Virus record (IMG/VR): IMGVR_UViG_3300028025_002794
Location: 1-30,812 of that record
Strand: one strand, 5' to 3'
DNA from: a virus
Length of the DNA stretch: 30,812 bases
Shown piece after piece: positions 1-26,089 of this stretch (position 1 is its first letter; each line of letters starts with the position of its first letter). The position numbers and the translations under genes are program-made. Under the pieces are notes generated by a model. It was not told where the DNA came from and did not search any database. It saw nothing but the letters and a program-made list of their open reading frames with translations.

Positions 1-24
1 GCCTTGCACTTTAAACAAGGTTTA

Positions 25-588
25 TTAAAGGCCATTTGCTTTGGCTATTACTTTGCCGTTGGTATAGGAGCGGTACTGGTCTAGTGTCCCCCGGGTATTG
101 GGGTCGTGCATACTTGCTGCTTCCATAGCTCGTAGCGCAGATAGGTCGTGGTTCTTGTGCCAGTCAGGTTTGTATTGTTTCTCAGCTAATGAGCCAAGGG
201 CTAGGTCTGCTCCCGATCCGATAGCCCAGTAAGGGCTGGCCGTAAGCACGCTTAGGTTCTCGCTTACAAGGAATGCTTTGCCATGTGTAACCAGTAAGGC
301 TTCAGCATCCATGTCAGTATCTTTAACGGTGTCATCTATTAGTGGGATTACCTTGGTAACCAACCACTTCATCCACTCGCCAGACTTAACTACTTCTATT
401 GGTGGCTTAGGATACTCAACCGCATACTGGAGTTGGTCGCATACTCTTGCACTTCCAGCTACACCGATAAGCCACGTGTCTTGCTGAACGATCTTAGGCA
501 TATCAGGATGAATAACGTCTGACGTAATACCTTGATCTGCTGTAAGTGTGCAGAAGTTATTGCCAGTTGTAGTTACTATCGTGGTCAT
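25..588 (-). CDS. HslV/proteasome-like Ntn hydrolase
   Basis: 187 aa. The N-terminus MTTIV matches the start of bacterial HslV as I remember it; removal of Met would expose Thr2 as the Ntn nucleophile. Asp18 sits where HslV has its catalytic Asp17 (mature numbering). Lys32 in the MPKIV segment is a candidate for the catalytic Lys, two positions off. The AIGSG motif (122-126) matches the HslV motif that carries the active-site Ser, and the SYTNG near the C-terminus resembles the HslV YTN ending. Length is close to HslV (about 175 aa). The start ATG overlaps the upstream stop as ATGA. No HslU/ClpX-like ATPase lies in the window, so an unfoldase partner would have to be the host's or encoded elsewhere. 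It is the last gene of the early run here. Role (host or phage protein turnover) is inference. Confidence 0.75.
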   Translation of the reverse strand: MTTIVTTTGNNFCTLTADQGITSDVIHPDMPKIVQQDTWLIGVAGSARVCDQLQYAVEYPKPPIEVVKSGEWMKWLVTKVIPLIDDTVKDTDMDAEALLVTHGKAFLVSENLSVLTASPYWAIGSGADLALGSLAEKQYKPDWHKNHDLSALRAMEAASMHDPNTRGTLDQYRSYTNGKVIAKANGL

Positions 589-881
589 TGCTCTAGCCCA
601 TCGCTCAGGTGTATGCCGTACCTAACTAAGTCCACTGCTGACTGCAGACCTGCTAGGTACTCAAGCGTAATGCTTGAATCTCCTAGAACGCGGTAAGTGA
701 CCATTGCTTCTAGTTCTGCTTCAAGTACGTCTGCTATTGCTTGGCGTGTTATACCTACGCTTAGCGAAAGGTTGACAACGCTCTTCTCTAGCTTCTCACG
801 GTCTGCGTCAGGCTTGTTCTTGAGCGCACTGCGAACTAGGTCGTTGTGAATAGTCACGCCTACTGTGTCAGTCCAGTTCAT
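585..881 (-). CDS. Hypothetical protein upstream of HslV-like gene
   Basis: 98 aa, mostly predicted helical, without recognised motifs; the middle (KLEKSVVNLSLSVGITRQAI) resembles a helix-turn-helix-like segment but this is weak. It overlaps the HslV-like gene by four bases (ATGA), so the two are very likely co-translated, making it the best guilt-by-association candidate for a partner or regulator of that protease. The start ATG has no strong Shine-Dalgarno sequence. It is separated by 12 nt from the 39-residue gene upstream. I do not recognise the family. Confidence 0.65.
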   Translation of the reverse strand: MNWTDTVGVTIHNDLVRSALKNKPDADREKLEKSVVNLSLSVGITRQAIADVLEAELEAMVTYRVLGDSSITLEYLAGLQSAVDLVRYGIHLSDGLEQ

Positions 882-893
882 CTGGCTAGTCTA

Positions 894-1013
894 TTAAGGT
901 CTAAGACTAGATTTGTCTATTGACACGTTGGCAGCCTGTAAGCATTCCCAGTAACTATCGTGGTCTTGTGTATCACAACCAGCACGACAAATACCGTTAG
1001 GTTCAGGCTTCAT
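894..1013 (-). CDS. Cys-rich microprotein (CxxxC-TQDHxSYxEC type)
   Basis: 39 aa. Reading from ATG at 1013 gives a peptide with Cys9, Cys13 (CRAGC), then TQDHDSYWECLQAANV and a stop at 894-896. The pattern of a GC-TQDH-SY-EC segment is one I recall from small proteins common in actinobacteriophages, where it is usually the N-terminus of a longer protein; here it stops right after the conserved part. It overlaps the gene upstream by 11 nt and lies 12 nt before the next, typical for this tight operon. Cys and His suggest metal binding. Function unknown. Confidence 0.6.
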   Translation of the reverse strand: MKPEPNGICRAGCDTQDHDSYWECLQAANVSIDKSSLRP

Positions 1014-1230
1014 GTTTTTTACCGTTCAGCACTTTCATAAGTTCTAAATAAACATACAATGATATAAAATCCTTTTCCCAGTATTCCTGTGTAAGTTCAC
1101 GCACACGATCAATGGCTTGCCTGTATTCATTGGCTATGCCCTTAAATTCTTCAATCAACTCAGCATCTAAACGTGCTTCAGCGTGCAGTATTGCAATTTC
1201 TTTTTCATAACCTGTTAATGGTTTAGTCAT
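1003..1230 (-). CDS. Small hypothetical protein with RVREL segment
   Basis: 75 aa, charged and mostly helical, without Cys motifs. The segment AIDRVRELTQ (about residues 39-48) is shared with the 91-aa protein encoded at 2006-2281 (AIQRVRELHK), suggesting a common short helical module or paralogy. The start ATG at 1230 overlaps the upstream stop by 8 nt. Function unknown. Confidence 0.7.
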   Translation of the reverse strand: MTKPLTGYEKEIAILHAEARLDAELIEEFKGIANEYRQAIDRVRELTQEYWEKDFISLYVYLELMKVLNGKKHEA

Positions 1231-1408
1231 TAGTCATCCCAGCAAAGTTGTTGTTGTATAAATTGTTGTATGCCTTGCTTATTTCGTTCATACAGAACAG
1301 GCAGAAACTCTTAGGCGCAACTGTTCCTAGCACGCCGTACTCATTCTTTTCTTCTAAGATCAGGGTCACTTTGGCATCGAAGCCACAGGCAATACATTGT
1401 TCTTTCAT
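1223..1408 (-). CDS. Zinc-ribbon microprotein
   Basis: 61 aa from the ATG at 1408, which forms an ATGA overlap with the upstream stop and has GGTGG five bases upstream; a GTG start at 1420 is possible but has no such support. Two CxxC knuckles (CIAC near residue 5 and CLFC near residue 36) make a four-Cys zinc ribbon likely. Such proteins often bind nucleic acid or stabilise complexes. No family recognised. Confidence 0.7.
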   Translation of the reverse strand: MKEQCIACGFDAKVTLILEEKNEYGVLGTVAPKSFCLFCMNEISKAYNNLYNNNFAGMTND

Positions 1409-1689
1409 CTCTGCCACCACCAGTAATTCTTAATCATTGGCTTTGCTGGATCATTGGCTATTGCTTGCGCCATTCGTTCTTCAAAGGATTCTTCACGAGT
1501 TTTCATTCTGTTCTCTGATTCAATCCAATCATTCTCGTGCATGGGATTCCAGAAACGATCAACAAAGTTAAGGCAGTTAATCCAGTAACGTAGGCCACAT
1601 TCGCATTGCCAGACTGTTCTGATTCCCATGTGTTCGTCAATTTCTGGCAGTACGCAACGGTGTTCGATAGTGATAAAAGTTCCGGTCAT
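1405..1689 (-). CDS. Hypothetical protein with CECG motif
   Basis: 94 aa. Cys12, Cys29 and Cys31 (WQCECGLRYW) suggest a metal-binding knuckle near the N-terminus; the C-terminal half is charged and Trp-rich (YWWWQR at the end). The start overlaps the upstream stop as TAATG and the stop overlaps the next start as ATGA, so it sits inside a translationally coupled run. Function not recognised. Confidence 0.7.
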   Translation of the reverse strand: MTGTFITIEHRCVLPEIDEHMGIRTVWQCECGLRYWINCLNFVDRFWNPMHENDWIESENRMKTREESFEERMAQAIANDPAKPMIKNYWWWQR

Positions 1690-2006
1690 TACTGCTCCTC
1701 GTTTATAGCTGCATAAGTAAAGAAATCTAATACAACGTATTCTGCTTGTTCTTCTGGTATTGGAAAGTCATCCAAAAACATTAAAAGATCTTCATTTAGA
1801 CCATCCATAGAAGCAATGAACACTTTTCTGTGAAGTATTGGCTTCTTAGTGATCATCACAAAATCTTTATGCTTTTCGACTGTTTTTTCAACCGATTCTA
1901 AAAGGTAATCAACTAACCATTCCTGTTCATCCCATAACTTTTTAGATACGATTTGCCTGTTCCAAAATTGTCTGACTGGATAGGTTTTTTCTGATGCTTT
2001 GTTCAT
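1689..2006 (-). CDS. Hypothetical early protein
   Basis: 105 aa, without Cys motifs or membrane segments, rich in Glu, Lys and aromatic residues. The C-terminal part (FLDDFPIPEEQAEYVVLDFFTYAAINEEQ) is acidic, a feature shared with some phage inhibitors of host DNA-binding proteins, but I cannot assign it. It is coupled on both sides (TAATG downstream; start adjoining the upstream stop). No known family recognised. Confidence 0.65.
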   Translation of the reverse strand: MNKASEKTYPVRQFWNRQIVSKKLWDEQEWLVDYLLESVEKTVEKHKDFVMITKKPILHRKVFIASMDGLNEDLLMFLDDFPIPEEQAEYVVLDFFTYAAINEEQ

Positions 2007-2281
2007 TAGTTCTTAAATCCTTCTAATGCTTTTATTGTTTTGCATGGGTAAGTATTGCATCCGCAATCATCGCTTGAACCCCATTCATTGCAGGCCCAGC
2101 ATTTTGTACAACCATCACAAATGTCAGTTGTTATGATCTCGCCGTTTTTTTCATAAATAAATGGTTTGTGCAATTCGCGCACACGTTGAATGGCTCTATG
2201 TAAAGTTGATTCCATGTCAGTTTTGACGTATGCGATCGCTTGCCATTCGCATATATGTTCTGTCTTATTTTTTCTAAACAT
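2006..2281 (-). CDS. Cys-rich early protein (RVRELHK ... CxxC ... YPC)
   Basis: 91 aa. The N-terminal half carries AIQRVRELHKPF (about 29-40). The C-terminal half has a Cys cluster (CDGCTKCWAC, then CGC and YPCKTI), which should bind one or two metal ions. The arrangement RVRELHK followed by CxxC and YPC-TI-AL resembles small proteins seen in many actinophage early regions; their role is unknown to me. The start at 2281 is coupled to the HNH gene upstream. Confidence 0.7.
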   Translation of the reverse strand: MFRKNKTEHICEWQAIAYVKTDMESTLHRAIQRVRELHKPFIYEKNGEIITTDICDGCTKCWACNEWGSSDDCGCNTYPCKTIKALEGFKN

Positions 2282-2562
2282 CAGTCATCCCAACTATTCT
2301 TGAGCCAGCCTTCAGCTTTGCCGATTGCCGGGTTTTGCGTTATGTAAGTGTGGCAAGGTCTGCACAACAGCGCAAGGTTATCCCTATCCACAATGCTTCC
2401 ACCTCTAGCCCGTGTCTTGATTTCGTGAACATCCGTTGCATAAGCCACAGCGCAACGCTGACAAGCCGGGAAGTCCCGTAGCAACTCTTTGACCAACTTA
2501 CGGCGTTCAGTCGCGTACAGGCTCTCCATCTTCTTAGAACGGGGTCTTATTGGCTTAGTCAT
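2281..2562 (-). CDS. HNH endonuclease-like protein
   Basis: 93 aa. Compact HNH (McrA-type) fold: zinc knuckle CQRC (34-37), VHEIKTRARGG with His46, Asn62 in DRDNLALLC, and a second knuckle CRPCH (67-71). This is the full core of an HNH nuclease with nothing added, so it could be a stand-alone nicking or cleaving enzyme used in packaging, recombination or homing. It sits in the early operon rather than next to a terminase, which favours a DNA-processing or homing role. Start overlaps the upstream gene by 8 nt. Confidence 0.85.
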   Translation of the reverse strand: MTKPIRPRSKKMESLYATERRKLVKELLRDFPACQRCAVAYATDVHEIKTRARGGSIVDRDNLALLCRPCHTYITQNPAIGKAEGWLKNSWDD

Positions 2563-2824
2563 TGAAAGGTAAATCCCTAACTATTGAGATACACCTTTGC
2601 TTCATCACCTGCATTGCAACATGAAGTGCAGGCTCTTGATCACTGATTTTAATAGCTTCTAGGGCTTCAATGATTGTGTCCCGGTAAGCAATTAGGCTTT
2701 TATTCCTATAACAGCTAGGGCATAAGTCATAAACAGTAGGTGGATCTGTCTTGTAGTTGTGGACTGCCCACCAGCCATCCCCTTCTGAGGATGACCGGGG
2801 GCAAACACCGCATTTACTTGTCAT
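2555..2824 (-). CDS. Zinc-binding hypothetical protein
   Basis: 89 aa. The N-terminal half holds two CxxC knuckles (CGVC at 5-8 and CPSC at about 35-38), probably one zinc ribbon; the C-terminal half is helical (YRDTIIEALEAIK). The start overlaps the upstream membrane-protein gene by 11 nt and the end overlaps the HNH gene by 8 nt. No family recognised. Confidence 0.7.
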   Translation of the reverse strand: MTSKCGVCPRSSSEGDGWWAVHNYKTDPPTVYDLCPSCYRNKSLIAYRDTIIEALEAIKISDQEPALHVAMQVMKQRCISIVRDLPFND

Positions 2825-3029
2825 CAGTGAACGGCTTACTTAGATCATCTGTGTAGGCATACTCACGATCTAGTGCAGCAAAGATTGGCTCCATAGAGTC
2901 AGTCTGACTGTGTAGATAATCAAGCCAAGCAATGTGCTGCTGTGCTTTGTGATGTAAGGCTAAACGGTATCCGGCAAAGAATACCAAGATAGTCGTAGAT
3001 ACTACTGAGAGTATTAGGGCAATAATCAT
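2814..3029 (-). CDS. Small N-terminally anchored membrane protein
   Basis: 71 aa from the ATG at 3029, which overlaps the SSB stop as ATGA; a TTG two codons upstream is open but less likely. Residues 1-22 (MIIALILSVVSTTILVFFAGYR) form one transmembrane helix, followed by a soluble tail with acidic residues. It is one of three single-pass microproteins in the early region (with 4417-4560 and 5338-5460). Function unknown; early phage membrane microproteins often act in exclusion or host takeover, which is inference here. Confidence 0.65.
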   Translation of the reverse strand: MIIALILSVVSTTILVFFAGYRLALHHKAQQHIAWLDYLHSQTDSMEPIFAALDREYAYTDDLSKPFTDDK

Positions 3030-3394
3030 AACCAAGGATCTTCCGTTAGGTCTTTCTGCTTACTTGCTTTAACTACGGCTGCAATGTCAGATGCTTCGAT
3101 CTCAACTGCTGTTGCTTTGTTGCCGTTCTTATCTTCATAGTTACGAACCTTAAGTTTTCCAGTCACCATTACTGATTGACCTTTCTTAAAGCTATCTCCA
3201 ACGGCTTCAGCCAAGCTGCGCCAAACTACAACATCTAGAAATGTAGGTTCGCCGTCTGACCATGTTCCGTCTTGCGCTTTCTTTCGTTCATTGCAAGCAA
3301 TTCTTAAACGACAACGGCTGATTCCGCTAGCGGTTACTTGGAAATCTGGGTCGAACGTTAGATTCCCGATTGCTGTAATTGTTGGTAGTGCCAT
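3026..3394 (-). CDS. ssb: Single-stranded DNA-binding protein
   Basis: 122 aa OB-fold protein: the N-terminal GNLTFDPDF, the core LRIACNERK and LDVVVWRSLAEAV, and the KGQSVMVTGKLKVRNYED segment are typical of SSB. The tail ends LTEDPWL, an acidic-aromatic tip like the partner-binding tail of bacterial SSBs, though the linker is very short. It would coat ssDNA in replication and recombination, working with the Rad52-type annealing protein and RusA encoded upstream in the same operon. Downstream gene coupled through ATGA. Confidence 0.9.
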   Translation of the reverse strand: MALPTITAIGNLTFDPDFQVTASGISRCRLRIACNERKKAQDGTWSDGEPTFLDVVVWRSLAEAVGDSFKKGQSVMVTGKLKVRNYEDKNGNKATAVEIEASDIAAVVKASKQKDLTEDPWL

Positions 3395-3399
3395 TTTAT

Positions 3400-3726
3400 T
3401 TATCCTGCTTCTCTCATGCGCTTACGATAAGCGCGTGTGTTTTTTGCTTCCTTTGTTTGTGATTCAAAGGATTCTTTGTAGGGTTCATCAATGCGTACTG
3501 CTTCGATCCCTAATTCTTTTCTCAGTGACTTGCGCTGTGATTCAGTTGTACCGGCCCAAAAGCCATCAACTTTCACATTTAGAGCGTAGTCGTAACATTC
3601 CCAAAATACGTTGCAATTCATGCAAATTCTTCTAAGTGTCTTTTCTGTTTGTGGTGCTATCGCTCCATTAGGAAAGAACAACTCAGGGTCTACGCCTAGG
3701 CAATTAGCTTGATTTGTATCAAACAT
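3400..3726 (-). CDS. WhiB-family Fe-S protein (second copy)
   Basis: 108 aa from ATG 3726, which has GAGGTG four bases upstream; a longer reading to 3744 is less likely. Four Cys match WhiB cluster ligands: Cys9, Cys35-xx-Cys38 and Cys44. GFWAGT (55-60) stands in for the usual G(V/I)WGG turn. The C-terminal tail is basic (RAYRKRMREAG), as expected for DNA contact. WhiB proteins bind a [4Fe-4S] cluster and act with the principal sigma factor; phage copies can interfere with host WhiB regulation. The gene sits between RusA and SSB, so it would be made with the recombination genes. Confidence 0.85.
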   Translation of the reverse strand: MFDTNQANCLGVDPELFFPNGAIAPQTEKTLRRICMNCNVFWECYDYALNVKVDGFWAGTTESQRKSLRKELGIEAVRIDEPYKESFESQTKEAKNTRAYRKRMREAG

Positions 3727-4138
3727 CTTGCACCTCGCTTGCAATTACCTGACAACCAATCCGATCTGTGGCGTACTGCTTTGATGCGCTTAAAGCTATA
3801 ACTAAGGCATCGTCTGTGTAGAGTCCACCAGTTGTAAGCCCGTCAAAGGTGCTGCGAACCAGTTTGTCTAGGTCAGGTTTAACAGCAGGCCATTTACGAT
3901 TGACTGTTTTAGGTCTAGGCAAATGAAACACAAGGGCAATCTCTACCGGGGTAGTTAGTGTCCATTGTTCAGCCATAGGCCATTTGCTTGCTCTGTATTC
4001 CTGCGTAGCGTTTGCAACGGCTTCGCGCCAAGGCTTAACCTTCTTGCTTGATTCGACCATAACAACGCGACCATTCTTAACAAAGCCATTTTTTGAACCT
4101 TGCGGTGCTGGCTCGCCGTCAATCCAGAAGCTATACAT
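3719..4138 (-). CDS. rusA: RusA-family Holliday junction resolvase
   Basis: 139 aa from ATG 4138, which overlaps the upstream stop by 8 nt and gives the usual RusA length; further codons upstream are open but not RusA-like. Conserved acidic residues are present: KPDLDKL (Asp89, Asp91), FDGL (Asp99) and YTDDALV (Asp109-110), matching the RusA Asp set that binds Mg2+. The N-terminus (FWIDGEPAPQGSKNG) fits the family. It resolves four-way junctions made by phage recombination, acting with the Rad52-type protein and SSB of the same operon. All catalytic positions look intact. Confidence 0.9.
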   Translation of the reverse strand: MYSFWIDGEPAPQGSKNGFVKNGRVVMVESSKKVKPWREAVANATQEYRASKWPMAEQWTLTTPVEIALVFHLPRPKTVNRKWPAVKPDLDKLVRSTFDGLTTGGLYTDDALVIALSASKQYATDRIGCQVIASEVQDV

Positions 4139-4427
4139 TGCCCACCCACACTGCGTGAATAGAACCGTGTGATGCCTTGCGCTTAGAAGGCGCGTATCCA
4201 ACCTTGCGAATAATCCCAGCGCGTGCTGCCTTGTTCATAACTGCGCCTGATGCGTTGTTCTTGTTCATGCCAACGTCACCGCTTGGAAGTCCTGTAATTG
4301 CTAAAACATCTTCACTTGTGAACTCTGTTCCGCGCTTTGCCAGTTGTTTAATAGCTTCAAAGGCTTGTTCTGCCCAATCAGGTTGCGCATCTAAAGCTAG
4401 TTGCATTCCAATTTCTTTAGTTGTCAT
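4131..4427 (-). CDS. Winged-helix-like early protein
   Basis: 98 aa from ATG 4427; the preceding GTG (4430) is also open. Features: PDWAEQAF near the N-terminus, then GTEFTSEDVLAITGLP, a likely helix-turn-helix, and a C-terminal KASHGSIHAVWVG. The series PDW ... FT-DV ... AA-GII ... SHG ... W-G recurs in small proteins of actinobacteriophage replication and recombination regions and resembles a winged-helix DNA-binding protein. Its position just before rusA suggests a recombination accessory role (inference). Confidence 0.7.
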   Translation of the reverse strand: MTTKEIGMQLALDAQPDWAEQAFEAIKQLAKRGTEFTSEDVLAITGLPSGDVGMNKNNASGAVMNKAARAGIIRKVGYAPSKRKASHGSIHAVWVGNV

Positions 4428-4560
4428 CACGCACCGCCCTTAGTGCCGGGTGATTTTCTGACGGTGGCAAACTATCGCGTACTGCAAAAGATAGGGCCAT
4501 AAGAATCATGCCAAAAAATCCGCCTAGTAAAAATAAGACCGCCCCTAGTAAAAATGTCAT
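4417..4560 (-). CDS. Small membrane protein (DUF3789-like)
   Basis: 47 aa. ATG 4560 overlaps the annealing-protein stop as ATGA; TAA is at 4417-4419, overlapping the next start. Residues 2-26 form one hydrophobic helix with the MTFLLGAVLFLLGGFFGMI pattern typical of tiny phage membrane proteins of the DUF3789 type, followed by a short polar tail. The coupling to both neighbours supports translation. Function unknown. Confidence 0.65.
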   Translation of the reverse strand: MTFLLGAVLFLLGGFFGMILMALSFAVRDSLPPSENHPALRAVRDDN

Positions 4561-5120
4561 GCTCCAAACTCAGTTTTCTTGTTGTTAAAAATTAGCCTTA
4601 GATTTCGCTTTTCATCTTCTGTAAATTCGCCACCTTGAATTAGTGGCACAATCTGACTTAATTCCACCAATGATGCTGAAGTATTGATGCGATCAATCAT
4701 CTTTTGTGTCGCTGTGCTTAAATCTTTAGTAGCTTTAGGCACAGGCTTTACGTCTGCCGGTGCTTCCTTAGCCCATAGATCAAGTGCTACCCCGTATCTC
4801 ATGGCTGCATTCCTTACGGCATTTCCAATAGCCGATTTTTTCTGATCGTACTTATCTCTAGTTGCTGGCTCGCCGTAACCGTAACGAGTAACACCGCAAA
4901 CAGTTAGTTTTATCCATAAACCGCCGTTTTCATCAAACTTAGGTAATCCTGCTTCATCAAATGCCACTGGTTCCCAAGTCCACATGGGATCTACTTGAAG
5001 CAGACGGTCTGTTACCCAAGCGTGGCTGACGTAATCTAATTGCAATCCGCCAGTAGGTAGTTTCTGAATTTGTTCTTTTGGAAACGGTGCGCGTAACGCA
5101 TCTTGTTGTTCTTGTTTCAT
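4557..5120 (-). CDS. Rad52-type single-strand annealing protein
   Basis: 187 aa. The layout matches Rad52/22-type phage recombinases: FPKEQIQKLP, LDYVSHAWVTDRLLQVDP with WTWEPV, then GVTRYGYGEPATRDKYDQKKSAIGNAVRNAAMRYGVALDLW, the signature helix-rich core. The C-terminal 55 residues are a variable tail. It would anneal complementary ssDNA during phage recombination, with SSB and RusA as partners in the same transcript. Start coupled by ATGA to the upstream gene. A LexA-box-like site upstream of this gene run suggests damage induction. No host-type RecA or Erf features seen. Confidence 0.82.
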   Translation of the reverse strand: MKQEQQDALRAPFPKEQIQKLPTGGLQLDYVSHAWVTDRLLQVDPMWTWEPVAFDEAGLPKFDENGGLWIKLTVCGVTRYGYGEPATRDKYDQKKSAIGNAVRNAAMRYGVALDLWAKEAPADVKPVPKATKDLSTATQKMIDRINTSASLVELSQIVPLIQGGEFTEDEKRNLRLIFNNKKTEFGA

Positions 5121-5338
5121 GCTTTGTCCTTTTCAATTTGTATGTTTTTAATTTTGCTTTTTAGTGTCATAGCTTCTTGCCGGTTTAACTTGGTCGTATC
5201 AAAAGGTTTACCAAGAAGGGCTGACAAAAATTCAATTTGCTGCTGTGGTTGTGTAATGCCTAAGTATTCAAGCATTTTTCTAATTTTGTGTTTATCGTCA
5301 AGCGTTGCCCGTTCCATTGAAAAGGGTACAAATCCCAT
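5117..5338 (-). CDS. Hypothetical protein preceding annealing protein
   Basis: 73 aa from ATG 5338 (TAATG with the upstream stop); an internal Met8 is an alternative start. Helical and basic, with TQPQQQIEFLSALLGKPF then LNRQEAMTLKSKIKN. Coupled by ATGA to the Rad52-type gene, so it may modulate that protein. No family recognised. Confidence 0.65.
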   Translation of the reverse strand: MGFVPFSMERATLDDKHKIRKMLEYLGITQPQQQIEFLSALLGKPFDTTKLNRQEAMTLKSKIKNIQIEKDKA

Positions 5339-5460
5339 TAGTTACCACCTAGTGCGTACCAAGTGCCTACAAATAAGACCCAACTAATACCGACAACGGC
5401 AACAGCTTGACATACTATGCCAATCATCTTGGCGCGTGGTGTCCAGTTCCAGTCACGCAT
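5338..5460 (-). CDS. Small single-pass membrane protein
   Basis: 40 aa. ATG 5460 lies inside the end of the upstream gene (overlap 8 nt) and the TAA at 5338-5340 forms TAATG with the next gene. A basic, Trp-containing N-terminus (MRDWNWTPRAK) precedes a hydrophobic helix (residues 12-35), giving a likely N-in orientation. Coupling on both sides supports a real gene. Function unknown. Confidence 0.6.
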   Translation of the reverse strand: MRDWNWTPRAKMIGIVCQAVAVVGISWVLFVGTWYALGGN

Positions 5461-5647
5461 TTTGCACCAACCTAGAATCCATTGCGCTTTTTAAGGTTGG
5501 GTAAGTTGAGCCAACCCAGTCAATGTCCCAATCTTCTGAGTCATCGTTGATAAAAACTCCCCAGCATCTTGGGCCGACATTTTTAATCATAAATTTTTTA
5601 TCAGTTGTTATGTAAATACGACCACCAAGTCGCTTCCAATTAGTCAT
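5453..5647 (-). CDS. Hypothetical early protein
   Basis: 64 aa, Trp-rich and probably beta-strand rich (GRIYITTDKKFMIKNVG, CWGVFINDD, DWDIDWVGSTYPTLKSAMDS). The pattern of a short sheet followed by a final helix with a TLK-A motif resembles small phage proteins of unknown role. Start overlaps the upstream stop by 8 nt. Confidence 0.65.
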   Translation of the reverse strand: MTNWKRLGGRIYITTDKKFMIKNVGPRCWGVFINDDSEDWDIDWVGSTYPTLKSAMDSRLVQNA

Positions 5648-5792
5648 CTTCAGACTCCTTTTCTAACATTGCTGGTGCAGCATCGCAGGCTACACATGGC
5701 ATAGTCGCGCCAAAGTCATTCCAAGGAACTTGTTGTTCTTCAAAACACTCAAGACAAATTACTGATTCTGTTGTTGGCATTTTTATTTTCAT
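5640..5792 (-). CDS. Zinc-ribbon microprotein
   Basis: 50 aa from ATG 5792, which forms TAATG with the upstream stop; a longer reading to 5858 lacks support. Two knuckles, CLEC (13-16) and CVAC (33-36), predict a zinc ribbon with an acidic tail (KESEDD). Likely a small nucleic-acid- or protein-binding factor; no family recognised. Confidence 0.65.
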   Translation of the reverse strand: MKIKMPTTESVICLECFEEQQVPWNDFGATMPCVACDAAPAMLEKESEDD

Positions 5793-5998
5793 TACGCACC
5801 TACTACTTTGCAAAATTCTTGTTCGCTCATTTTTTCTTGCATTGCTTTCATAATCCAACCCCGTGTGACAAGAAGCGCATCCGCATCTTCATTTTTAAGT
5901 GCGCCATTACGAACACGGGTCATCATTTTTTCAGACACAATCCAAAGATTTTTTAAATCTTCAGCTTTCATAGTTTGCAACTTTTCAAAAGCGTTCAT
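5792..5998 (-). CDS. Hypothetical early protein
   Basis: 68 aa, helical and charged, without motifs apart from a C-terminal EQEFCKVVGA. TAATG overlaps on both sides place it in a coupled run from 6174 leftward. Its last residues (VVGA) echo those of the upstream protein (VYVAGA), perhaps by chance. Function unknown. Confidence 0.65.
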   Translation of the reverse strand: MNAFEKLQTMKAEDLKNLWIVSEKMMTRVRNGALKNEDADALLVTRGWIMKAMQEKMSEQEFCKVVGA

Positions 5999-6174
5999 TA
6001 CGCACCAGCCACATAAACGTTGTTAAAAGTTTCTGAACAATAACCTTCAGCGTGACTACATCCGGCGTGCGCCCAACCTTTTTCAAAAGATCCATTGCCA
6101 ATAGCTTCTTCCATAGATTCGATATATTCAGCTACTAACTTTTCCCATTCAGGGCTTCCAACGATTGATTCCAT
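5998..6174 (-). CDS. First gene of early recombination run, hypothetical
   Basis: 58 aa. ATG 6174 has AAGGAAC about 7 bases upstream; the TAA at 5998-6000 overlaps the next start as TAATG. The protein has two Cys and two His (HAGCSHAEGYC) in the middle, a possible metal site, and an acidic N-terminus. It is the first gene after the 138-base leader with the LexA-like box, so it opens the operon carrying the Rad52-type protein, RusA, WhiB and SSB. Function unknown. Confidence 0.65.
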   Translation of the reverse strand: MESIVGSPEWEKLVAEYIESMEEAIGNGSFEKGWAHAGCSHAEGYCSETFNNVYVAGA

Positions 6175-6198
6175 TTGCTTTGTTCCTTTGCTTCTCTT

Positions 6199-6214
6199 GG
6201 AACTTCTCAGTTCC
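6199..6214 (-). promoter_or_regulatory. Leader inverted repeat before early operon
   Basis: A perfect 6-bp inverted repeat GGAACT-TCTC-AGTTCC lies 25-40 bases upstream of the first ATG (6174). There is no T-run after it on the minus strand, so it is not a terminator. It could be an operator or an RNA hairpin near the ribosome-binding site. Function inferred only from position. Confidence 0.4.
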
Positions 6215-6298
6215 CCTTACATGTATAACGTTACAGGATTTGGTCAGATTTGTACACCATTTAGGACATTTTTAGGTAACGTTTTGATAACAACTTAT

Positions 6299-6314
6299 TC
6301 GAACATTTGTTCTA
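6299..6314 (-). promoter_or_regulatory. LexA/SOS-box-like operator
   Basis: The top strand reads TCGAACATTTGTTCTA. The actinobacterial/Gram-positive LexA consensus, TCGAAC-N4-GTTCGA, is matched at 11 of 12 specified bases. The site overlaps the TAG stop of the WhiB gene and stands about 125 bases before the first ATG of the recombination operon. It is the only site with intact GAAC-N4-GTTC that I found by eye. Binding by host LexA is inference. Confidence 0.55.
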
Positions 6315-6650
6315 ATTTGTGTAAGCAAAAACTCTTAAAAATCTACGCTTTTCTAATTTGTCTTTTGGTAGCTTTGGGGACTTAGATAACTTTGCTCTTT
6401 CGATTGGATCCAATCCGCCCCACATGCCCCACTTTTCATCAATACCAATTTCTAGACAAAATCCAACAACCGGGCATTCTTCACACAATCGCCGCGCTAT
6501 GTCGTAAAGGTGCGGTTCATCATCTTCAGGAAAGCAAGTATCCGGGTGAGCATCGTTACAAGCTGCCTTGTGCATCCAGCCTTCAGGCGCAGAGCAGATT
6601 AGGCACATGCCAGAATCTAGCCATTCTTCATGCTCACAGTCTTTGATCAT
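6312..6650 (-). CDS. WhiB-family Fe-S protein with extra Cys cluster
   Basis: 112 aa. The WhiB core has Cys31, Cys56-xx-Cys59 and Cys65 as [4Fe-4S] ligands and the turn GMWGGLDP (75-82), followed by a basic tail (KLPKDKLEKRRFLRV) for DNA contact. The first 27 residues add a possible second metal site: Cys5, His7, Cys16, Cys19 (CEHEEW ... CLIC), not part of a minimal WhiB; Cys39 is also extra. Probably acts with the host sigma factor to redirect transcription. It starts 7 nt after the helicase-loader-like gene and ends inside the LexA-like box. Confidence 0.88.
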   Translation of the reverse strand: MIKDCEHEEWLDSGMCLICSAPEGWMHKAACNDAHPDTCFPEDDEPHLYDIARRLCEECPVVGFCLEIGIDEKWGMWGGLDPIERAKLSKSPKLPKDKLEKRRFLRVFAYTN

Positions 6651-6657
6651 TAGACCA

Positions 6658-6999
6658 TTATGGTCGCTTTAGTCCCATTTCCACCAATTTGGCGCGTACA
6701 TCGTCTGGCATTCCCTGCGATCTAGGAGTAGAACCAATAGCCCTAACGTTGTTTATTTCGTTTTCACGGCTTCTGTGACTGCTCCACATAGCGTTTAGAT
6801 GTGCAGGCATTATCGAATCTGTTGATGATTTGTAGTGCTTTCCTATTGCATCACGGGCAAACTCAAAATCCATAGATTCGCTGAGTGCTAATGACCAGCC
6901 TTCAACCTTTGACCTAAAAGCCGTTTCATCAGTTGCGCCCAAACGTGCATCTATCGCTAATGCAATTGCTAATACTTTTCCTACTTCTGCTTTGTTCAT
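6658..6999 (-). CDS. Helicase-loader-like replication protein
   Basis: 113 aa from ATG 6999 (ATGA overlap with the initiator-like gene; AAGGAA upstream). The sequence KVLAIALAIDARLGATDE ... VEGWSLALSESMDFEFARDAIGKHYKSSTDSIMPAHL follows the pattern of a small actinophage family (D-R ... W ... L-d-d-A-AV-HY-S ... I-PA-I) regularly found beside replication genes and thought to act in helicase loading. The C-terminal tail ends MPDDVRAKLVEMG. Context next to a winged-helix initiator supports a replication role; the exact function is inference. Confidence 0.65.
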   Translation of the reverse strand: MNKAEVGKVLAIALAIDARLGATDETAFRSKVEGWSLALSESMDFEFARDAIGKHYKSSTDSIMPAHLNAMWSSHRSRENEINNVRAIGSTPRSQGMPDDVRAKLVEMGLKRP

Positions 7000-7772
7000 T
7001 GTCCTAGTTCCTTTGTTTCGTTTTCTAGATTTTTGAGCCAATCAATAGTTTTGGTGAACTTGCTTTGCTTATTGTTGCGTTGTGCTGCAAGGCGTAACTG
7101 GTCGTATTGCTTACGCAGTTTTGCTGGACTCATAATGTTTCCACGCCAAAAGTCATCAGCCTGACACCACTGAATAGCTTTTGTTATCTGTTCCCAACTG
7201 CGTTCGTCAATCCTGTGAAGTTTTTCCATATCGCTTAACCATTTATCGGTTACCTGTGGCCTGCGCGATCCGTTATCAGCAATTAAGTCAGCTAAAAGAT
7301 TGCACGCTTGAATAATCTCTTCACCGTAGGTGTGAGTATTAAGTTCTTTGGTTCTAAGTTCTATATGGTTATTAGTTAGTTCACCACTGGTGGGTATAGG
7401 GGTATCCCCATCTGTGGGTATAGGTGTACCCACTGGTGAGCATAGGTATCTGCAATTCGTCACACTTGAAGTATGAACGTGATACAGATTTGAAGTCCAG
7501 TCACCGTCTTTATTTTTACGGTTAATTTGGCACAATGCACCCATGTCTATCAACTCTTTTTTAGCGCGATCCATAGTGTTTGCTGACGTGCCTAATTGCT
7601 CTGCAAGTTTTCTGCGTGACCAAAAACTTGTACCCCGTTTGTTATCGCCGTTCTTGCGCAGCACTAGGTAAAGTTTTATAGCCGTAGCTGAAACGTCAGA
7701 CTCAAATACCCAATTTGGTATCTGTTGAAACGGTAAAGGCTCAACGTGTATTTCTGCTTTGTCGTTGTCCAT
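6996..7772 (-). CDS. Winged-helix replication-initiator-like protein
   Basis: 258 aa from ATG 7772 (TAATG with upstream stop). Residues about 15-100 form a winged helix-turn-helix: IPNWVFESDVSATAIKLYLVLRK, then WSRRKLAEQLGTSANTMDRAKKELIDMGAL and a YHV wing strand. A low-complexity linker (PVGTPIPTDGDTPIPTSGE) follows, then a C-terminal helical domain with a WCQADDFWRGNIMSPAKLRKQYDQL segment typical of phage replisome organisers. That C-terminal motif is common in initiators that load helicase. The linker-coding DNA holds iteron-like repeats. It could instead be only a transcription regulator. Confidence 0.7.
   Translation of the reverse strand: MDNDKAEIHVEPLPFQQIPNWVFESDVSATAIKLYLVLRKNGDNKRGTSFWSRRKLAEQLGTSANTMDRAKKELIDMGALCQINRKNKDGDWTSNLYHVHTSSVTNCRYLCSPVGTPIPTDGDTPIPTSGELTNNHIELRTKELNTHTYGEEIIQACNLLADLIADNGSRRPQVTDKWLSDMEKLHRIDERSWEQITKAIQWCQADDFWRGNIMSPAKLRKQYDQLRLAAQRNNKQSKFTKTIDWLKNLENETKELGQ
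7384..7446. repeat. Iteron-like direct repeats, putative replication origin
   Basis: Within the initiator-like gene, GTGGGTATAGG occurs at 7390-7400 and 7414-7424, with a 9/11 match (GTGAGCATAGG) at 7436-7446, so the spacing is 24 and 22 bases. CCACTGGTG occurs at both ends (7384-7392 and 7430-7438). An AT-rich stretch (about 7336-7383) adjoins on the left. Origins inside initiator genes are known for lambda O and dairy-phage replisome organisers. Origin function here is inference. Confidence 0.45.
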
Positions 7773-8077
7773 TACAGATTCTCTTGAAACTCTACTTTTG
7801 ACCACTTAAGTCGTAAGGCTTCAACAACTGCGCTGCGCTCAAGCTCTGGCAGGTTAGCAATTTCATCTAGGCTAACTTCAACCATTTCAGAACCACAAAG
7901 GAACTCTAGAACGGCAACCATTACTAGCTGATTAGCATCAAACTCAGGTTCATCTAGGTTATCTATTACTTCCCAGACCTTAGCCCAATCAATCGGGGTA
8001 ACAGCATCGTGATTGTTAAATAGCTTGTGTTCTGCCATCCATGTTGTCTGCACCAATTGTTCGCTTGGTGTTCTCAT
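7772..8077 (-). CDS. Hypothetical early protein
   Basis: 101 aa from ATG 8077, which has AGGAG seven bases upstream and an ATGA overlap with the RHH gene; a longer reading to 8152 is not supported. Acidic and helical (PIDWAKVWEVIDNLDEPEFDANQLVMVAVLEFLCG, then LDEIANLPELERSAVVEALRLKW). It lies between a ribbon-helix-helix regulator and the initiator-like gene. No family recognised. Confidence 0.7.
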   Translation of the reverse strand: MRTPSEQLVQTTWMAEHKLFNNHDAVTPIDWAKVWEVIDNLDEPEFDANQLVMVAVLEFLCGSEMVEVSLDEIANLPELERSAVVEALRLKWSKVEFQENL

Positions 8078-8232
8078 TGCTTTGCTCCTGTCATTAGTTC
8101 TATTGCTGATCTGATCACTTGACTTACATTGGCGTTGTGTTGATGCGCCCATTGTCTAACTGCAAGCATTTGCTCATTATTAAGCCGTAGCGCAATTAGA
8201 TTTTCTTTTGTTTCTTTCTGTTCGTCAGCCAT
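8074..8232 (-). CDS. Ribbon-helix-helix DNA-binding protein
   Basis: 52 aa from ATG 8232, with AGGGG six bases upstream; upstream in-frame codons to 8325 run into the terminator hairpin and are rejected. LIALRLNNEQMLAVRQWAHQHNANVSQVIRSAIELM is a typical CopG/Arc ribbon (LIALRL) followed by two helices with the N-VSQVIRSAI signature. Dimers of such proteins repress phage operons. It is the first gene of the replication operon after a strong terminator, and AGACAATG repeats lie in and before it, so it may be autoregulated. Confidence 0.75.
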   Translation of the reverse strand: MADEQKETKENLIALRLNNEQMLAVRQWAHQHNANVSQVIRSAIELMTGAKQ

Positions 8233-8308
8233 TGCTAACCCCTTCCATTGTCTTTGTATGACACTAAAGGCATTGTCTAACAAATGCAAGAAGGCACACC
8301 GGGAAAAA
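8233..8308 (-). promoter_or_regulatory. Leader of replication operon with AGACAATG repeats
   Basis: This gap between terminator and RHH gene carries, on the minus strand, AGACAATG at 8271-8278 and 8246-8253. A third copy lies inside the gene at 8150-8157; the copies at 8271 and 8150 extend to an identical 11-mer GTTAGACAATG. A weak TTGTTA-17-CATACA promoter can be drawn. The repeats are candidate operators for the RHH protein. Confidence 0.4.
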
Positions 8309-8346
8309 GTAAACCCACCGCACAAAGCATAAGACGGTGGGTTTAC
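8309..8346 (-). terminator. Strong intrinsic terminator
   Basis: A perfect 12-bp stem, GTAAACCCACCG with CGGTGGGTTTAC, encloses a 14-nt loop and is followed on the minus strand by TTTTT. It lies 15 nt after the stop of the 8361-8582 gene and separates the late/lysis transcript from the replication operon. Confidence 0.85.
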
Positions 8347-8360
8347 GGTTTAGGGGTTAC

Positions 8361-8582
8361 CTAAAGCTGCGCAAGTCTGCTCAGTCTAGCGCGTAAGTGT
8401 GCCAAATACACAATCGCATCGTCAAGTTCTTCTAGCGTTTCTTGCACAACTTGACCGCCAGACTTTGTTTCTATGGATTGTTGATTGCCCCGGCTGTATT
8501 GTTCATCGCCTGTGCCAATGATTCTTGAGCGTAGCGACTCAACACAGGCAGTAACTTGTTCAGCTAATTCTTCACTTGTCAT
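8361..8582 (-). CDS. Small conserved actinophage-type protein
   Basis: 73 aa from ATG 8582, with GGAG ten bases upstream; longer readings (GTG 8666, ATG 8648) overlap another small gene and lack ribosome-binding sites. The form MTSEELAEQVTACVESLRSRIIGTGDEQY, then a helix with LDDAIVYLAHLRARL, is one I recall from many actinobacteriophage genomes, always small and of unknown role. It ends just before the strong terminator. Confidence 0.68.
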   Translation of the reverse strand: MTSEELAEQVTACVESLRSRIIGTGDEQYSRGNQQSIETKSGGQVVQETLEELDDAIVYLAHLRARLSRLAQL

Positions 8583-8682
8583 TGAATACCAACTCCATAA
8601 ATTCACACTTGCGACACACTTTGTAATCGCCTTCTGTTGATCTGACATAGAGCATGTCGTGATCACAAGACTTTGAGGTCAT
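8572..8682 (-). CDS. Zinc-finger microprotein
   Basis: 36 aa. ATG 8682 overlaps the metallophosphoesterase stop and has AAGGG seven bases upstream. The peptide has CDHDMLYVRSTEGDYKVCRKC, that is Cys6, His8, Cys23, Cys26, a compact zinc finger or ribbon. TGA at 8572-8574 overlaps the next start by 11 nt. Microproteins of this type are frequent in phages. Function unknown. Confidence 0.6.
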   Translation of the reverse strand: MTSKSCDHDMLYVRSTEGDYKVCRKCEFMELVFNDK

Positions 8683-9853
8683 CCCATTTCCCTTCGCCTA
8701 CTGTTAGTGTCAGCATTCCTGCTGGTGCTTCTGCGCCACTTGAATTTGAAAACCACTGGCTGCCACCATCCAAGGCAGGAGCCTGAACCCAAGTCTTGCG
8801 ACCTGATTGTTCAATGCGCAAATGATGATAATGGCCCGTGAGCAGTAAAGTGGCTTCGCCTATGTCTTGTTGCCCGTGAGCCTGTTTCATCCACCAATCA
8901 ACAGCCTTACCCCGGCACTGATGACCATGAGCAAGACCAACAACTGTTCCAGCCATGTCTAGAGTCACAGTCAAAGTGTCGTATTTAGGAAAGGTAAAAC
9001 TTATGTGCTTAAAGTCAGGATGATCAGCCAGCGCATCCGCAACTGCTGAAGCTGCATCTAGCGCGAATGAATCAGTGTAAGTCGTAGCCATTGAGTTTCC
9101 AACGCGCACTGCTTCATCGTGATTGCCCGGAACACAAGGCACAATCACCTTTTCAGCAAGTGGCGCAAATGCCTTGACCATGTGAAGTAGTAACCGCCGG
9201 TAGACACGAATTTGTGAAGTTAGATCTAAATCCGTTCTCCACACATTCTTTCCGCCTTGGCTACTGAACCCCTCAATACAATCGCCAAGCTGCGGTAGAT
9301 AGACCGTTCCAATGTCGCGCCCTGCCTTTCGTAGTTCCTTGAGTCGGGCAACCGCTAAATCGGTCTTATGTAATACGTTCTGAATAATCTCCTCAGAGCC
9401 ACCACCGTCAATTTTTCCGACTTGGGTGTCTGCAAGTACCACAACGTAGGCTAAACGGCTCTCAGACCCCTTTACGGGCTTCCTAGAGGCATCCTGTGGC
9501 TTTGGCTTCCACTTCTTTATGACTTCAAGTAGGTCATCTATTGGAATTTGGTGGGTTCCTGAAGTTGGCACAAAAGTAGCCCTAAATGCTTCTAACCAAT
9601 CGCCATTAAATGACTGCCACTTAGAACGGCGCAGTCCTGTTATACGCCAACGGTTAGGGTCTAGCTGAAACTCAGCAAACAACTCCGCGTGATCAGGTTC
9701 ATCAGGCACAGCCATTCTTGGCACTGAGGTCAGCGTTCCACCTGTGGAATCATACTGAATTGCTGGTTCCCAACCCTTAGGGATTTCCTTAGCAATCCGT
9801 TTTCGTTGCGTATCATCACCTAGATTACTTAGATCATCTTTTAGGCTACCCAT
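8663..9853 (-). CDS. Calcineurin-like metallophosphoesterase
   Basis: About 396 aa from ATG 9853 or 402 from ATG 9871; neither has a strong Shine-Dalgarno and both lie inside the HNH gene end. Counted from 9871, the metal-binding motifs are Asp148 (ADTQVG, with Gln150 in place of the usual His), Asp197 (LGDCIEG), Asn250-His251-Asp252 (GNHDE), His315/His317 (AHGHQ) and His347/His349 (GHYHH). The first 140 residues are a phage-type extension (WRITGLRRSKWQ). Such enzymes, often called Mre11-like, act as nucleases or phosphodiesterases on nucleic acid. Its neighbours (a small DNA-binding protein and HNH) suggest DNA processing or packaging. Substrate unknown. Confidence 0.83.
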   Translation of the reverse strand: MGSLKDDLSNLGDDTQRKRIAKEIPKGWEPAIQYDSTGGTLTSVPRMAVPDEPDHAELFAEFQLDPNRWRITGLRRSKWQSFNGDWLEAFRATFVPTSGTHQIPIDDLLEVIKKWKPKPQDASRKPVKGSESRLAYVVVLADTQVGKIDGGGSEEIIQNVLHKTDLAVARLKELRKAGRDIGTVYLPQLGDCIEGFSSQGGKNVWRTDLDLTSQIRVYRRLLLHMVKAFAPLAEKVIVPCVPGNHDEAVRVGNSMATTYTDSFALDAASAVADALADHPDFKHISFTFPKYDTLTVTLDMAGTVVGLAHGHQCRGKAVDWWMKQAHGQQDIGEATLLLTGHYHHLRIEQSGRKTWVQAPALDGGSQWFSNSSGAEAPAGMLTLTVGEGKWDDLKVL

Positions 9854-10428
9854 GTCAAACTCGCTTTCCATTCTGTAAGAAACTTACTGCCCTTGCTTTG
9901 ATTACATTTGGAACAGGCAGCAATCAAGTTACCTATTGAATGTGAACCACCCCGGCTAATTGGAACAATGTGATCTATTTGTATCGACTCTTTTGAACCA
10001 CAATAAAAACAATTTGATTCTGTTATTTTCTTAATTTCTTTTTCTTTAACTACAAAAATTCCATTGCTTAATAATCTTGCTCTGCGCACATGATACTTAT
10101 TTTTAGCTTGTTCCTTGTGAGTCTGATAATACTTTTGTCTACGTTCAATTTGCTTTTCAATGTTGCGTGCATAAAAACTACGATTCTTTGCGTTGATTTT
10201 TGATTTGTTTTGAACGTAATAATTTCTTTGATACTCATTTATAGTGTCTTTATTTTTTTCATAACGAATTTTGTTATTGGCGTTAATGCGTTCTTTGCTT
10301 TGATCGTAATAATTACGCACACACTCTTTACATTTCTCATGTAATCCGTCTTTATTCCTGCTGCGTTTACCAAATAGGTCTACCACTTTGGTTTCTTTGC
10401 AGTTGCTACAAGTTTTGAAATCACTCAC
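9841..10428 (-). CDS. HNH homing-type endonuclease with N-terminal zinc domain
   Basis: 195 aa from GTG 10428, which overlaps the upstream stop by 8 nt and puts the start just before FKTCSNCKETK, the usual beginning of this family; an ATG at 10500 would overlap 80 nt. An N-terminal four-Cys zinc domain (CSNC ... CKEC) is followed by a long Lys/Asn-rich helical linker (YYDQSKERINANNKIRYEKN repeats) and a C-terminal HNH (CFYCGSKESIQIDHIVPISRGGSHSIGNLIAACSKCNQSKG). The gene is clearly more A+T-rich than its neighbours and is wedged between two genes, overlapping both, which fits a mobile free-standing endonuclease. Confidence 0.85.
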   Translation of the reverse strand: MSDFKTCSNCKETKVVDLFGKRSRNKDGLHEKCKECVRNYYDQSKERINANNKIRYEKNKDTINEYQRNYYVQNKSKINAKNRSFYARNIEKQIERRQKYYQTHKEQAKNKYHVRRARLLSNGIFVVKEKEIKKITESNCFYCGSKESIQIDHIVPISRGGSHSIGNLIAACSKCNQSKGSKFLTEWKASLTWVA

Positions 10429-10666
10429 AAGCGCAACCGACTTCCTTTTGTCCACGTTTTCTATGACGTAGTAGGGATTTTCTATGGATTTTGTGACCAT
10501 GCTTTTCTAGAACTCTGGCAAGCATCGCCATTGAGGTATCAGAACTATCTATTGCTTTGAGTAAGGCTTCTGATTCTTTAGGGGGTAATTGCTTTAGTAA
10601 TGTTCCAACAGTGCATACGTTTGTATGACTGGGAATACTGGCTATGTCATCTAAGAATGACACCAT
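10421..10666 (-). CDS. Small helix-turn-helix DNA-binding protein
   Basis: 81 aa. LLKQLPPKESEALLKAIDSSDTSMAMLARVLEKHGHKIHRKSLLRHRKRG follows the pattern of small actinophage proteins with a helix-turn-helix (A-I/L-A-x-L-x-x-x-G-H-x-I/V, then xVxRHRRG). It ends in GCACE. The start has AAAGGTGG upstream (ATG 10666 or GTG 10663). In related phages such proteins sit near packaging or nuclease genes, so a terminase-small-subunit-like role is possible, but I cannot show it. Confidence 0.68.
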   Translation of the reverse strand: MVSFLDDIASIPSHTNVCTVGTLLKQLPPKESEALLKAIDSSDTSMAMLARVLEKHGHKIHRKSLLRHRKRGQKEVGCACE

Positions 10667-10712
10667 AGACCACCTTTCGGATAGGTTAAGACAAGCGTAA
10701 CCCAGAGGTCAG

Positions 10713-10994
10713 TCAGTTTGCGGATTTCTTAGGGCGTGTTGCAGGTTTTGTAACAAGTTCCTCAATAGCAACAACGCGCTTTTCTATGTCAGTTTGCTTA
10801 GACTCAATGCGGTTTACAGTCTGAGCTACATCGCTAAGGCTTCTGCCGCCATTTGCGCCGGGTGAAATTGGATAAGTAGCTTGATCTATGTACGCCTTGA
10901 TCGGCTTTACAACAACCCATTTAACGAAAAGACCAACAGCACCGGCAATAGTTGTCAGTGCTGCTGCGTATTGAGCGATTACAAGAATAGACAT
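10713..10994 (-). CDS. DUF2746-like membrane protein, holin candidate
   Basis: 93 aa. One transmembrane helix near the N-terminus (about 5-29), then an ISPGANGGRSLSDVAQTV segment and a coiled coil (RIESKQTDIEKRVVAIEELV) with a basic tail. The NANGG-RSL-DV motif after a membrane helix is typical of the DUF2746 family found in actinophage lysis cassettes. TAATG coupling to the upstream gene and closeness to the M23 peptidase support a lysis role. Confidence 0.65.
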   Translation of the reverse strand: MSILVIAQYAAALTTIAGAVGLFVKWVVVKPIKAYIDQATYPISPGANGGRSLSDVAQTVNRIESKQTDIEKRVVAIEELVTKPATRPKKSAN

Positions 10995-11389
10995 TATGGA
11001 ATAGCCAACTTAGTTTCGCGTGTGGTGATTGTTGCCTTGCCGTTTACCTTGACCTGAAAGACAACGGGCTGATCTTTAACAGCTTGAAACATCCAGTTAT
11101 CTTTGACGAACGTAGTGCCACCTTTGTTTAGTGGCTTTGTTTCGTAACCCGTTGCATCGTTGATGCCTTTAGGGTCGCGCACCCAGCGAATTGTTAGCTC
11201 AGTTGCGCCACCGATTTTAGGGGTCTTGATGTTTAGGTAAGCAGACCAGAACGCGCCATACTTGCTGTTCTCATTTGGCACTAGGGCAGTTAGTCCAGAT
11301 GCTTCAACTGAAGTCCATACATCAGGGGTTAGAACTTGCGTAGGGTTCTTGCTCTTAGCATCTGACTTGCGTGAAATGTATTGGCTCAT
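10994..11389 (-). CDS. Hypothetical protein in lysis region
   Basis: 131 aa from ATG 11389, which overlaps the peptidase stop as ATGA; the reading from 11401 is less likely. No membrane segment; probably beta-sandwich (FWSAYLNIKTPKIGGATELTIRWVRDP, NWMFQAVKDQPVVFQVKVNG). It looks like a secreted or virion-surface carbohydrate-binding-like protein, but no family is recognised. The position between peptidase and DUF2746 suggests a part in cell-wall recognition or the virion. Confidence 0.68.
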   Translation of the reverse strand: MSQYISRKSDAKSKNPTQVLTPDVWTSVEASGLTALVPNENSKYGAFWSAYLNIKTPKIGGATELTIRWVRDPKGINDATGYETKPLNKGGTTFVKDNWMFQAVKDQPVVFQVKVNGKATITTRETKLAIP

Positions 11390-11811
11390 GCTTCCATCCA
11401 CCTTTTAGGATTGACGTGCTTCTTAGGATTCCAAGTGCGACTAGCAAGGATTTGAAAGTGTAGATGTGGAGCTGTGCTTCTACCTGTGTTACCTGAGTAA
11501 CCAACAAGATCGCCCTTAGAAACTCTTTGACCAACGTGGACTGCAACTTTAGATAGGTGGCAATAGCCAGCCCAAAGCCCTGCATCGCCATCTGAGAACT
11601 TGTCGTTGTCTACTATGACGTGAATACCAAAAGCCGTTCCCCAGCCCTTACGAAACTTGTGAACGCCAGCGTGAACAATTACACCGGGAACAGCTGCATA
11701 GACAGGAGTTCCAACTTTGGCTCTGCCGTCAATGCCTTTGTGAATCGTGCCGTTTGAATACTTAGCACCATAAGGAAACGTAGTAACCCACGCCTTCAAG
11801 GGGGATGCCAT
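11386..11811 (-). CDS. M23 (LytM-type) peptidase, endolysin candidate
   Basis: 141 aa. All zinc ligands of the M23 family are present: His24 and Asp28 (HKGID) and His118 in HLH (116-118), with His85 (CHLS) as the likely catalytic His. The supporting GTPVYAAVPGVIVHAG and VGYSGNTG motifs fit. It has no signal peptide and no added binding domain, so export would need a holin; the gene just upstream is such a candidate (TAATG coupling). It cleaves peptide bridges of peptidoglycan; it could also act as a virion-bound enzyme. Confidence 0.88.
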   Translation of the reverse strand: MASPLKAWVTTFPYGAKYSNGTIHKGIDGRAKVGTPVYAAVPGVIVHAGVHKFRKGWGTAFGIHVIVDNDKFSDGDAGLWAGYCHLSKVAVHVGQRVSKGDLVGYSGNTGRSTAPHLHFQILASRTWNPKKHVNPKRWMEA

Positions 11812-22729: not shown

Positions 22730-22732
22730 GCT

Positions 22733-25381: not shown

Positions 25382-26089
25382 TTAGAACGCTTTAAGCATT
25401 AAATCAAGTTGTTTGCGTTTGATTTCCAACAAGTCTGCTGGGTTTGGTTGATCTGCTCTAAGTTTAGAAACAACTTCAGTCAGAATTTCAGCTTGTGTGT
25501 CAGTTAGTGTTTGACCTTCTTCAAGTCGAACCATTGCATCTGCTAAAGAATCTGCATCAACTAAAGTGCGAGTTGCAAGAATGTCAATGGTACGAACGTC
25601 AGCAGTTGTTGCTTCATAGGCTGGGAATCCAGTAACAACAGAAACTTCATGTAAACGGATTTGATGTAGTTCCCGTGTAGATCCGTCACTGCTCCACTTG
25701 TCACCATTTGGCGGAACTGAGAAACCGAAACTCATTGAATGAACATCTCCACGTTGCATCAAAACTGATAAGTCACGACCAACGGTTGTTTCAGGCAGTT
25801 TGGCTTCAGCTAATAAGCCCTTTGAATCTTCTGTAAGTCTTAGGGTTCCGGAACGTGTAGAAGCAAGAATGTGATCCATGTTGTGATTCATAAACATTTT
25901 CACTTCGTTGCGTGTTTTCAATGAACGCTGAAAAGCACCGGTACGAATGTACTCAGTGAAAGGTAGTGGTTCAGAAGGCGAATCGAAAACCGCAGCATAT
26001 CCTCTGAAGGTCATTTTGTCAGAACTTGCTTCACCTTCAAAATTAAGTTCAAAATTTGCCGGACTTGTTCTGCGTTCAACGGTTTTCAA
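25382..26089 (-). CDS. HK97-type prohead protease
   Basis: 235 aa from TTG 26089, with GGAG five bases upstream. S78-family residues: His69 (MNHN), Ser120 in SMSFGF, and Glu148 in LHEVSVV. FRGYAAVFDSPSEPL at residues 28-42 is the usual N-terminal signature. It cleaves the capsid delta domain during maturation. A terminator follows. Confidence 0.92.
   Translation of the reverse strand: MKTVERRTSPANFELNFEGEASSDKMTFRGYAAVFDSPSEPLPFTEYIRTGAFQRSLKTRNEVKMFMNHNMDHILASTRSGTLRLTEDSKGLLAEAKLPETTVGRDLSVLMQRGDVHSMSFGFSVPPNGDKWSSDGSTRELHQIRLHEVSVVTGFPAYEATTADVRTIDILATRTLVDADSLADAMVRLEEGQTLTDTQAEILTEVVSKLRADQPNPADLLEIKRKQLDLMLKAF

Follow-up and report, generated by a model that had tools for sequence, protein, structure and literature searches.

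The window, a 30,812-nt stretch of viral DNA (IMG/VR record IMGVR_UViG_3300028025_002794, positions 1 to 30,812), encodes a 187-residue protein whose membership in the proteasome family of Ntn hydrolases, beyond chance similarity, is confirmed by sequence profiles and a predicted structure. Judged from its sequence, its model and analogy with relatives, the protein is most likely a threonine peptidase that acts as a ring, needs no ATP and would trim unfolded or specific proteins in infection. The features discussed below are:

1..24, minus strand: region immediately following the protease stop codon, where relatives carry an HNH endonuclease gene (~101 aa) and then a cos-like terminus
25..588, minus strand: proteasome-homolog (Ntn hydrolase) gene, 187 aa, ATG start, assigned from profile matches, predicted model and alignment
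583..588, minus strand: start codon and Thr2 codon (MT...), predicted N-terminal nucleophile site, without propeptide
585..881, minus strand: gene for a predicted all-helical protein of 98 aa, sharing 4 bases with the start of the protease gene
25382..26089, minus strand: HK97-type (S78) head maturation protease, a separate gene

Fold and family of the window protein

In profile searches the window protein matches PHROG 1040 ('peptidase HslV family'; E=1.1e-20) and Pfam PF00227 (Proteasome), the latter at 22.9 bits, narrowly above the cut-off of 22.4. A search of the PDB with the window protein as a single sequence gave no significant match. A family profile built from 30 phage sequences matched BPH (residues 2–184, E=5e-10), Thermoplasma 20S β (residues 2–185, E=4e-9) and, in two stretches, HslV (E=3e-10).

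The AlphaFold model (pLDDT 87, pTM 0.86) adopts the Ntn sandwich fold, so that both marks of the PF00227 family, this fold and a profile score above the curated threshold, are present. Foldseek aligned the model to 20S β with E=1e-10, and the best solved matches are proteasome β-subunits, BPH and HslV; TM-scores are only ~0.6–0.7 and rmsd values 4.5–7 Å, leaving details of a ring interface uncertain. The Ntn/proteasome fold proposed in the initial annotation is thus borne out by PHROG 1040, PF00227 and these structural matches. Among viral models the top match is an uncultured Caudovirales protein with 45% identity, followed by many phage proteins, some of them labelled HslV or proteasome β. 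Comparison with ten orthologs shows strong purifying selection on the reading frame (dN/dS 0.06–0.14).

Conservation of the active site

The alignment comprises 112 phage homologs, many closely related to each other, together with 10 HslV and 2 BPH sequences. The equivalents of Thr1, Asp17 and Lys33 are invariant throughout (112/112, 10/10 and 2/2, respectively), and the Gly47 equivalent is present in 111 of the 112 phage sequences. With the initiator Met counted, the predicted catalytic residues of the window protein are T2, D18, K32 and G45, which cover the N-terminal Thr/Ser nucleophile and all three other positions; S125 and D162 were also marked. In the DSSP assignment, D18 and G45 lie at the ends of strands 2 and 4, respectively, K32 sits immediately ahead of strand 3, and helices span 47–56, 64–69/72–87, 127–137 and 147–161. 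The protein is apparently catalytically intact, as far as a predicted active site can indicate.

Most of the sequence features first noted hold up. The MTTIV N-terminus (Thr2-Thr3-Ile-Val), Asp18 and AIGSG (122–126) are all present in the 187-aa minus-strand frame, and the invariance of the N-terminal Thr among the 112 phage relatives agrees with its placement as nucleophile. Two details need correction. Lys32 had been read as lying two positions off HslV Lys33; in the alignment it is the true equivalent, the S2–S3 loop of the window protein being two residues shorter. The 'YTN' near the C-terminus (residues 175–177), taken as an HslV match, is a chance resemblance: it is not conserved, and the threonine of the HslV YTN aligns with T165 within D162-P-N-T165. 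Position 162 is Asp in the phages and BPH and Cys in HslV. Arg48 is phage-specific (109/112), with Ala in HslV and BPH.

Relatives and distribution

Viral contigs hold 24 close relatives and at least 430 wider ones. Two scans of 84,980 genomes, using narrow patterns that differed from the pattern of the viral search, recovered no relative with the window-family patterns and a single contig with an alignment of a related clade. This contig (L109, JAURLY010000091.1) is binned in a gammaproteobacterial MAG; by eye it carries phage-like genes and a WhiB-like gene, and the latter together with the phage protease makes it probably a misbinned actinophage.

Annotated relatives, usually labelled 'protease', occur in Arthrobacter and Microbacterium phages and in the lake actinophage DSL-LC01, and also in Vibrio, Pseudoalteromonas and Psychrobacter phages. 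The SEA-PHAGES 'protease' genes of Arthrobacter phages Hum25 (gp81) and Pitbull (gp77) and of Microbacterium phages Pumpernickel (gp135), WaterT (gp15) and others, together with the DSL-LC01 gene annotated 'HslV', encode the same invariant active-site residues as the window protein; they share ~22–30% identity with it where aligned and have other neighbours. The Hum25 and DSL-LC01 proteins match PHROG 1040, as the window protein does. Megablast of window positions 1–12000 found no close cultured phage, and the papers on freshwater actinophages that we consulted make no mention of the protease gene. The kind of relatives alone suggests a freshwater habitat for the phage.

Genomic context

Two genes for WhiB-family transcription factors (3400–3744 and 6312–6650) identify the window as actinophage DNA, as had been proposed. 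The gene order in the window lineage is (98-aa gene), protease, HNH endonuclease, cos-like end, ParB-like gene, terminases and portal; the HNH gene and the cos-like terminus are both lost from the window contig.

Several related contigs (L002, L005 and L019; ends L114–L116) end at the same place, which is internal in L001, L003, L013, L014, L020, L024 and others. The right ends stop at ...AC, the left ends start directly after the 9-nt CCCGACC(C/T/A)A, and this 9-nt sequence is found only in contigs spanning the junction. This pattern, beside the HNH gene, resembles a cos site whose single-stranded overhang would be 9 nt long. The slot between the ParB-like gene and the small terminase is variable (L001, L007, L013), holding a methyltransferase-like fusion, extra genes of 229–248 aa, or nothing.

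The 98-aa gene, suggested earlier as a partner of the protease, is a sporadic neighbour. Four relatives lack it and keep the protease (L014, L017, L047, L048), which weakens that suggestion and led us to reject an obligate partnership; in L005 it lies ~1.2 kb from the protease, and among the more distant phages tested only L049 has one (51% identity). The model of its product is all-helical and of low confidence.

Protease neighbourhoods vary widely among phage groups. In the window lineage, in ct2KA10 and in WaterT the gene has a terminase or portal gene nearby; in Hum25 it is close to the HNH gene, at the right end of the genome; other phages carry it in nucleotide-metabolism or accessory regions. 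In a related clade (L088, L100, L105, L109) it closely follows a gene for a ~400-aa metallophosphoesterase-like protein; the metallophosphoesterase-like gene of the window (8663–9871) is distant from the protease. Elsewhere in the window, a 526-aa protein with a C-terminal Zeta-toxin-type kinase domain (PF06414, 5.8e-26) is encoded at 26766–28346, between the portal and the head maturation protease. By eye, NAD-dependent sugar epimerase-like and glycosyltransferase-like genes lie between the head and tail genes (20389–23908).

Proposed activity and alternatives

We favour, with some reserve, a compact, propeptide-free peptidase of the BPH/HslV-like 'group I' (Fuchs, Alva and Lupas) that would assemble by itself into a ring and work without a dedicated AAA+ unfoldase. 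The computed results are the homology, the fold, the conserved active site, the selection, the lack of a phage-encoded HslU/ClpX-type ATPase and the separate maturation protease; Met removal, ring assembly, proteolysis, ATP independence and the substrate class are what we infer.

In 20S and HslV chemistry, removal of Met exposes Thr as the nucleophile. Host methionine aminopeptidase would likewise take off Met1 of the window protein and expose Thr2, which would attack peptide bonds together with D18 and K32, with G45 forming the oxyanion hole, as in 20S β and HslV. Self-assembly into a ring or double ring is probable because the helix pairs that make ring contacts in relatives are predicted to be present. 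In the infected cell, the particle may then cleave polypeptides of host or phage, either unstructured or specific ones. The retained contact helices, together with the missing ATPase and the example set by BPH, suggest that the protein assembles as a ring and works independently of ATP.

No obvious ATPase had been noted in the sequence, and none of the HslU or ClpX type was found in the phage or the relatives searched. The HslU-type domain PF07724 (AAA_2) was found in 0 of 17 phage records, so that the HslU partner expected of an HslV is missing from the records searched, and PF00004 was absent from the window-lineage records. Of the records searched, just Pumpernickel, DSL-LC01 and ct2KA10 have AAA domains; that these three more distant homolog-bearing phages encode some AAA protein counts against an unfoldase-free peptidase.

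The ring is countered by connectase, a proteasome homolog that can be a monomeric ligase (PMC8665760). A dedicated processing enzyme or connectase-like ligase with one host or phage protein as its substrate, as opposed to a general degradation chamber, would fit the lack of an ATPase, the phage-specific Arg48 and the variable neighbourhood, which suggests a stand-alone enzyme. We consider it rather unlikely, as the window protein has only residues 36–39 where an insertion of the connectase type would stand, between strands 3 and 4, and retains the ring-contact helices.

The position beside cos, HNH and terminase genes, shared in part by ct2KA10, WaterT and Hum25, could point to a virion-assembly protease acting in prohead or packaging maturation. 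A separate S78 head maturation protease is present in 12/12 window-lineage contigs tested, which argues against the Ntn hydrolase being the prohead protease, a candidate we rejected; with the gene placed in nucleotide-metabolism or accessory regions in other phages, an assembly role is improbable.

Relationship to HslV

The initial annotation had called the protein HslV-like, which holds for the fold and the Thr/Asp/Lys residues but not for membership in HslV, now largely refuted by sequence comparison. The window protein has no match at E<=1 to the NCBIfam HslV equivalog models (TIGR03692, NF003964), and relatives that do match reach 17–30 bits against cut-offs of 137–158. In the tree, the phage sequences lie on one side of a branch (85/73); the HslV clade (99/99) excludes the window protein, and the BPH pair (98/98) falls on another branch. 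Because the deep branches are long, the tree firmly shows no more than that the phage sequences lie outside HslV. Searched against cellular proteins, the family profile scores a BPH-like protein highest (47.6 bits), HslV at 13–42 and Anbu at 4.

Model scores, clade and the D/C difference at 162 led us to reject a true HslV. The MTTIV start, AIGSG, the name of PHROG 1040 and the profile-level similarity (E=3e-10) could speak for a true HslV taken up by the phage and docking on host HslU. Such an origin is very improbable given the model scores, the separate HslV clade, the Cys where phages and BPH carry Asp, and Table 1 of PMC8665760, which marks no HslV in Actinobacteria and so makes a host HslU unlikely. 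A catalysis-lacking scaffold or decoy, for example one capping the host proteasome, would draw on the 20S β-like fold and is scarcely credible, since all 112 phage homologs keep the catalytic T, D and K.

Comparison with known proteasome homologs

Phage proteasome homologs are already described in outline and form a little-studied family, in general with no known substrate or partner. A 2021 survey (Fuchs, Alva and Lupas, PMC8665760) reported PPH, AAH and CPH from phages, with a genomic context that gave no hint of function; in 2020, HslV without HslU had been described in a jumbo phage of Salmonella (PMC7823757). Added here is a conserved actinophage branch, catalytically intact by sequence, with sequenced relatives in phages of culturable hosts (Arthrobacter, Microbacterium), which makes viral use of the proteasome testable in laboratory phages. 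With lower probability, a broader idea can be raised: actinophages may have built up a branch of their own, either of proteasome-like particles that lack an ATPase or of proteases or ligases with a single substrate, and use it to reshape the host proteome in cells lacking HslUV. If true, viruses would have a proteasome that is none of HslV, BPH or PPH.

The window protein is one of the phage-borne representatives of the wider family of proteasome homologs. HslV (ClpQ) shares its fold, Thr1/Asp17/Lys33 and the GSG motif; the window protein differs in lying outside the HslV clade, in the lack of HslU in the phage and in having Asp instead of Cys at 162. Like AAH, PPH and CPH (PMC8665760), it is phage-borne and compact, with Thr1/Asp17/Lys33 and no AAA+ partner found. 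PPH is defined by ~140 residues and a missing helix H2, whereas the window protein has 187 residues and H2 is predicted (model helices 47–56 and 64–69/72–87). No Actinobacteria-specific phage with AAH is given in PMC8665760, whereas the window gene sits in a WhiB-bearing actinophage. BPH (PDB 5ovs/5ovu) differs in its low identity, its separation from the phage clade and its long acidic pore loop, which is shorter in the window protein. Of the cellular proteins it nevertheless scores highest with the family profile, and the two are alike in the full-length profile match, the D162 and G132 equivalents and the lack of a dedicated unfoldase.
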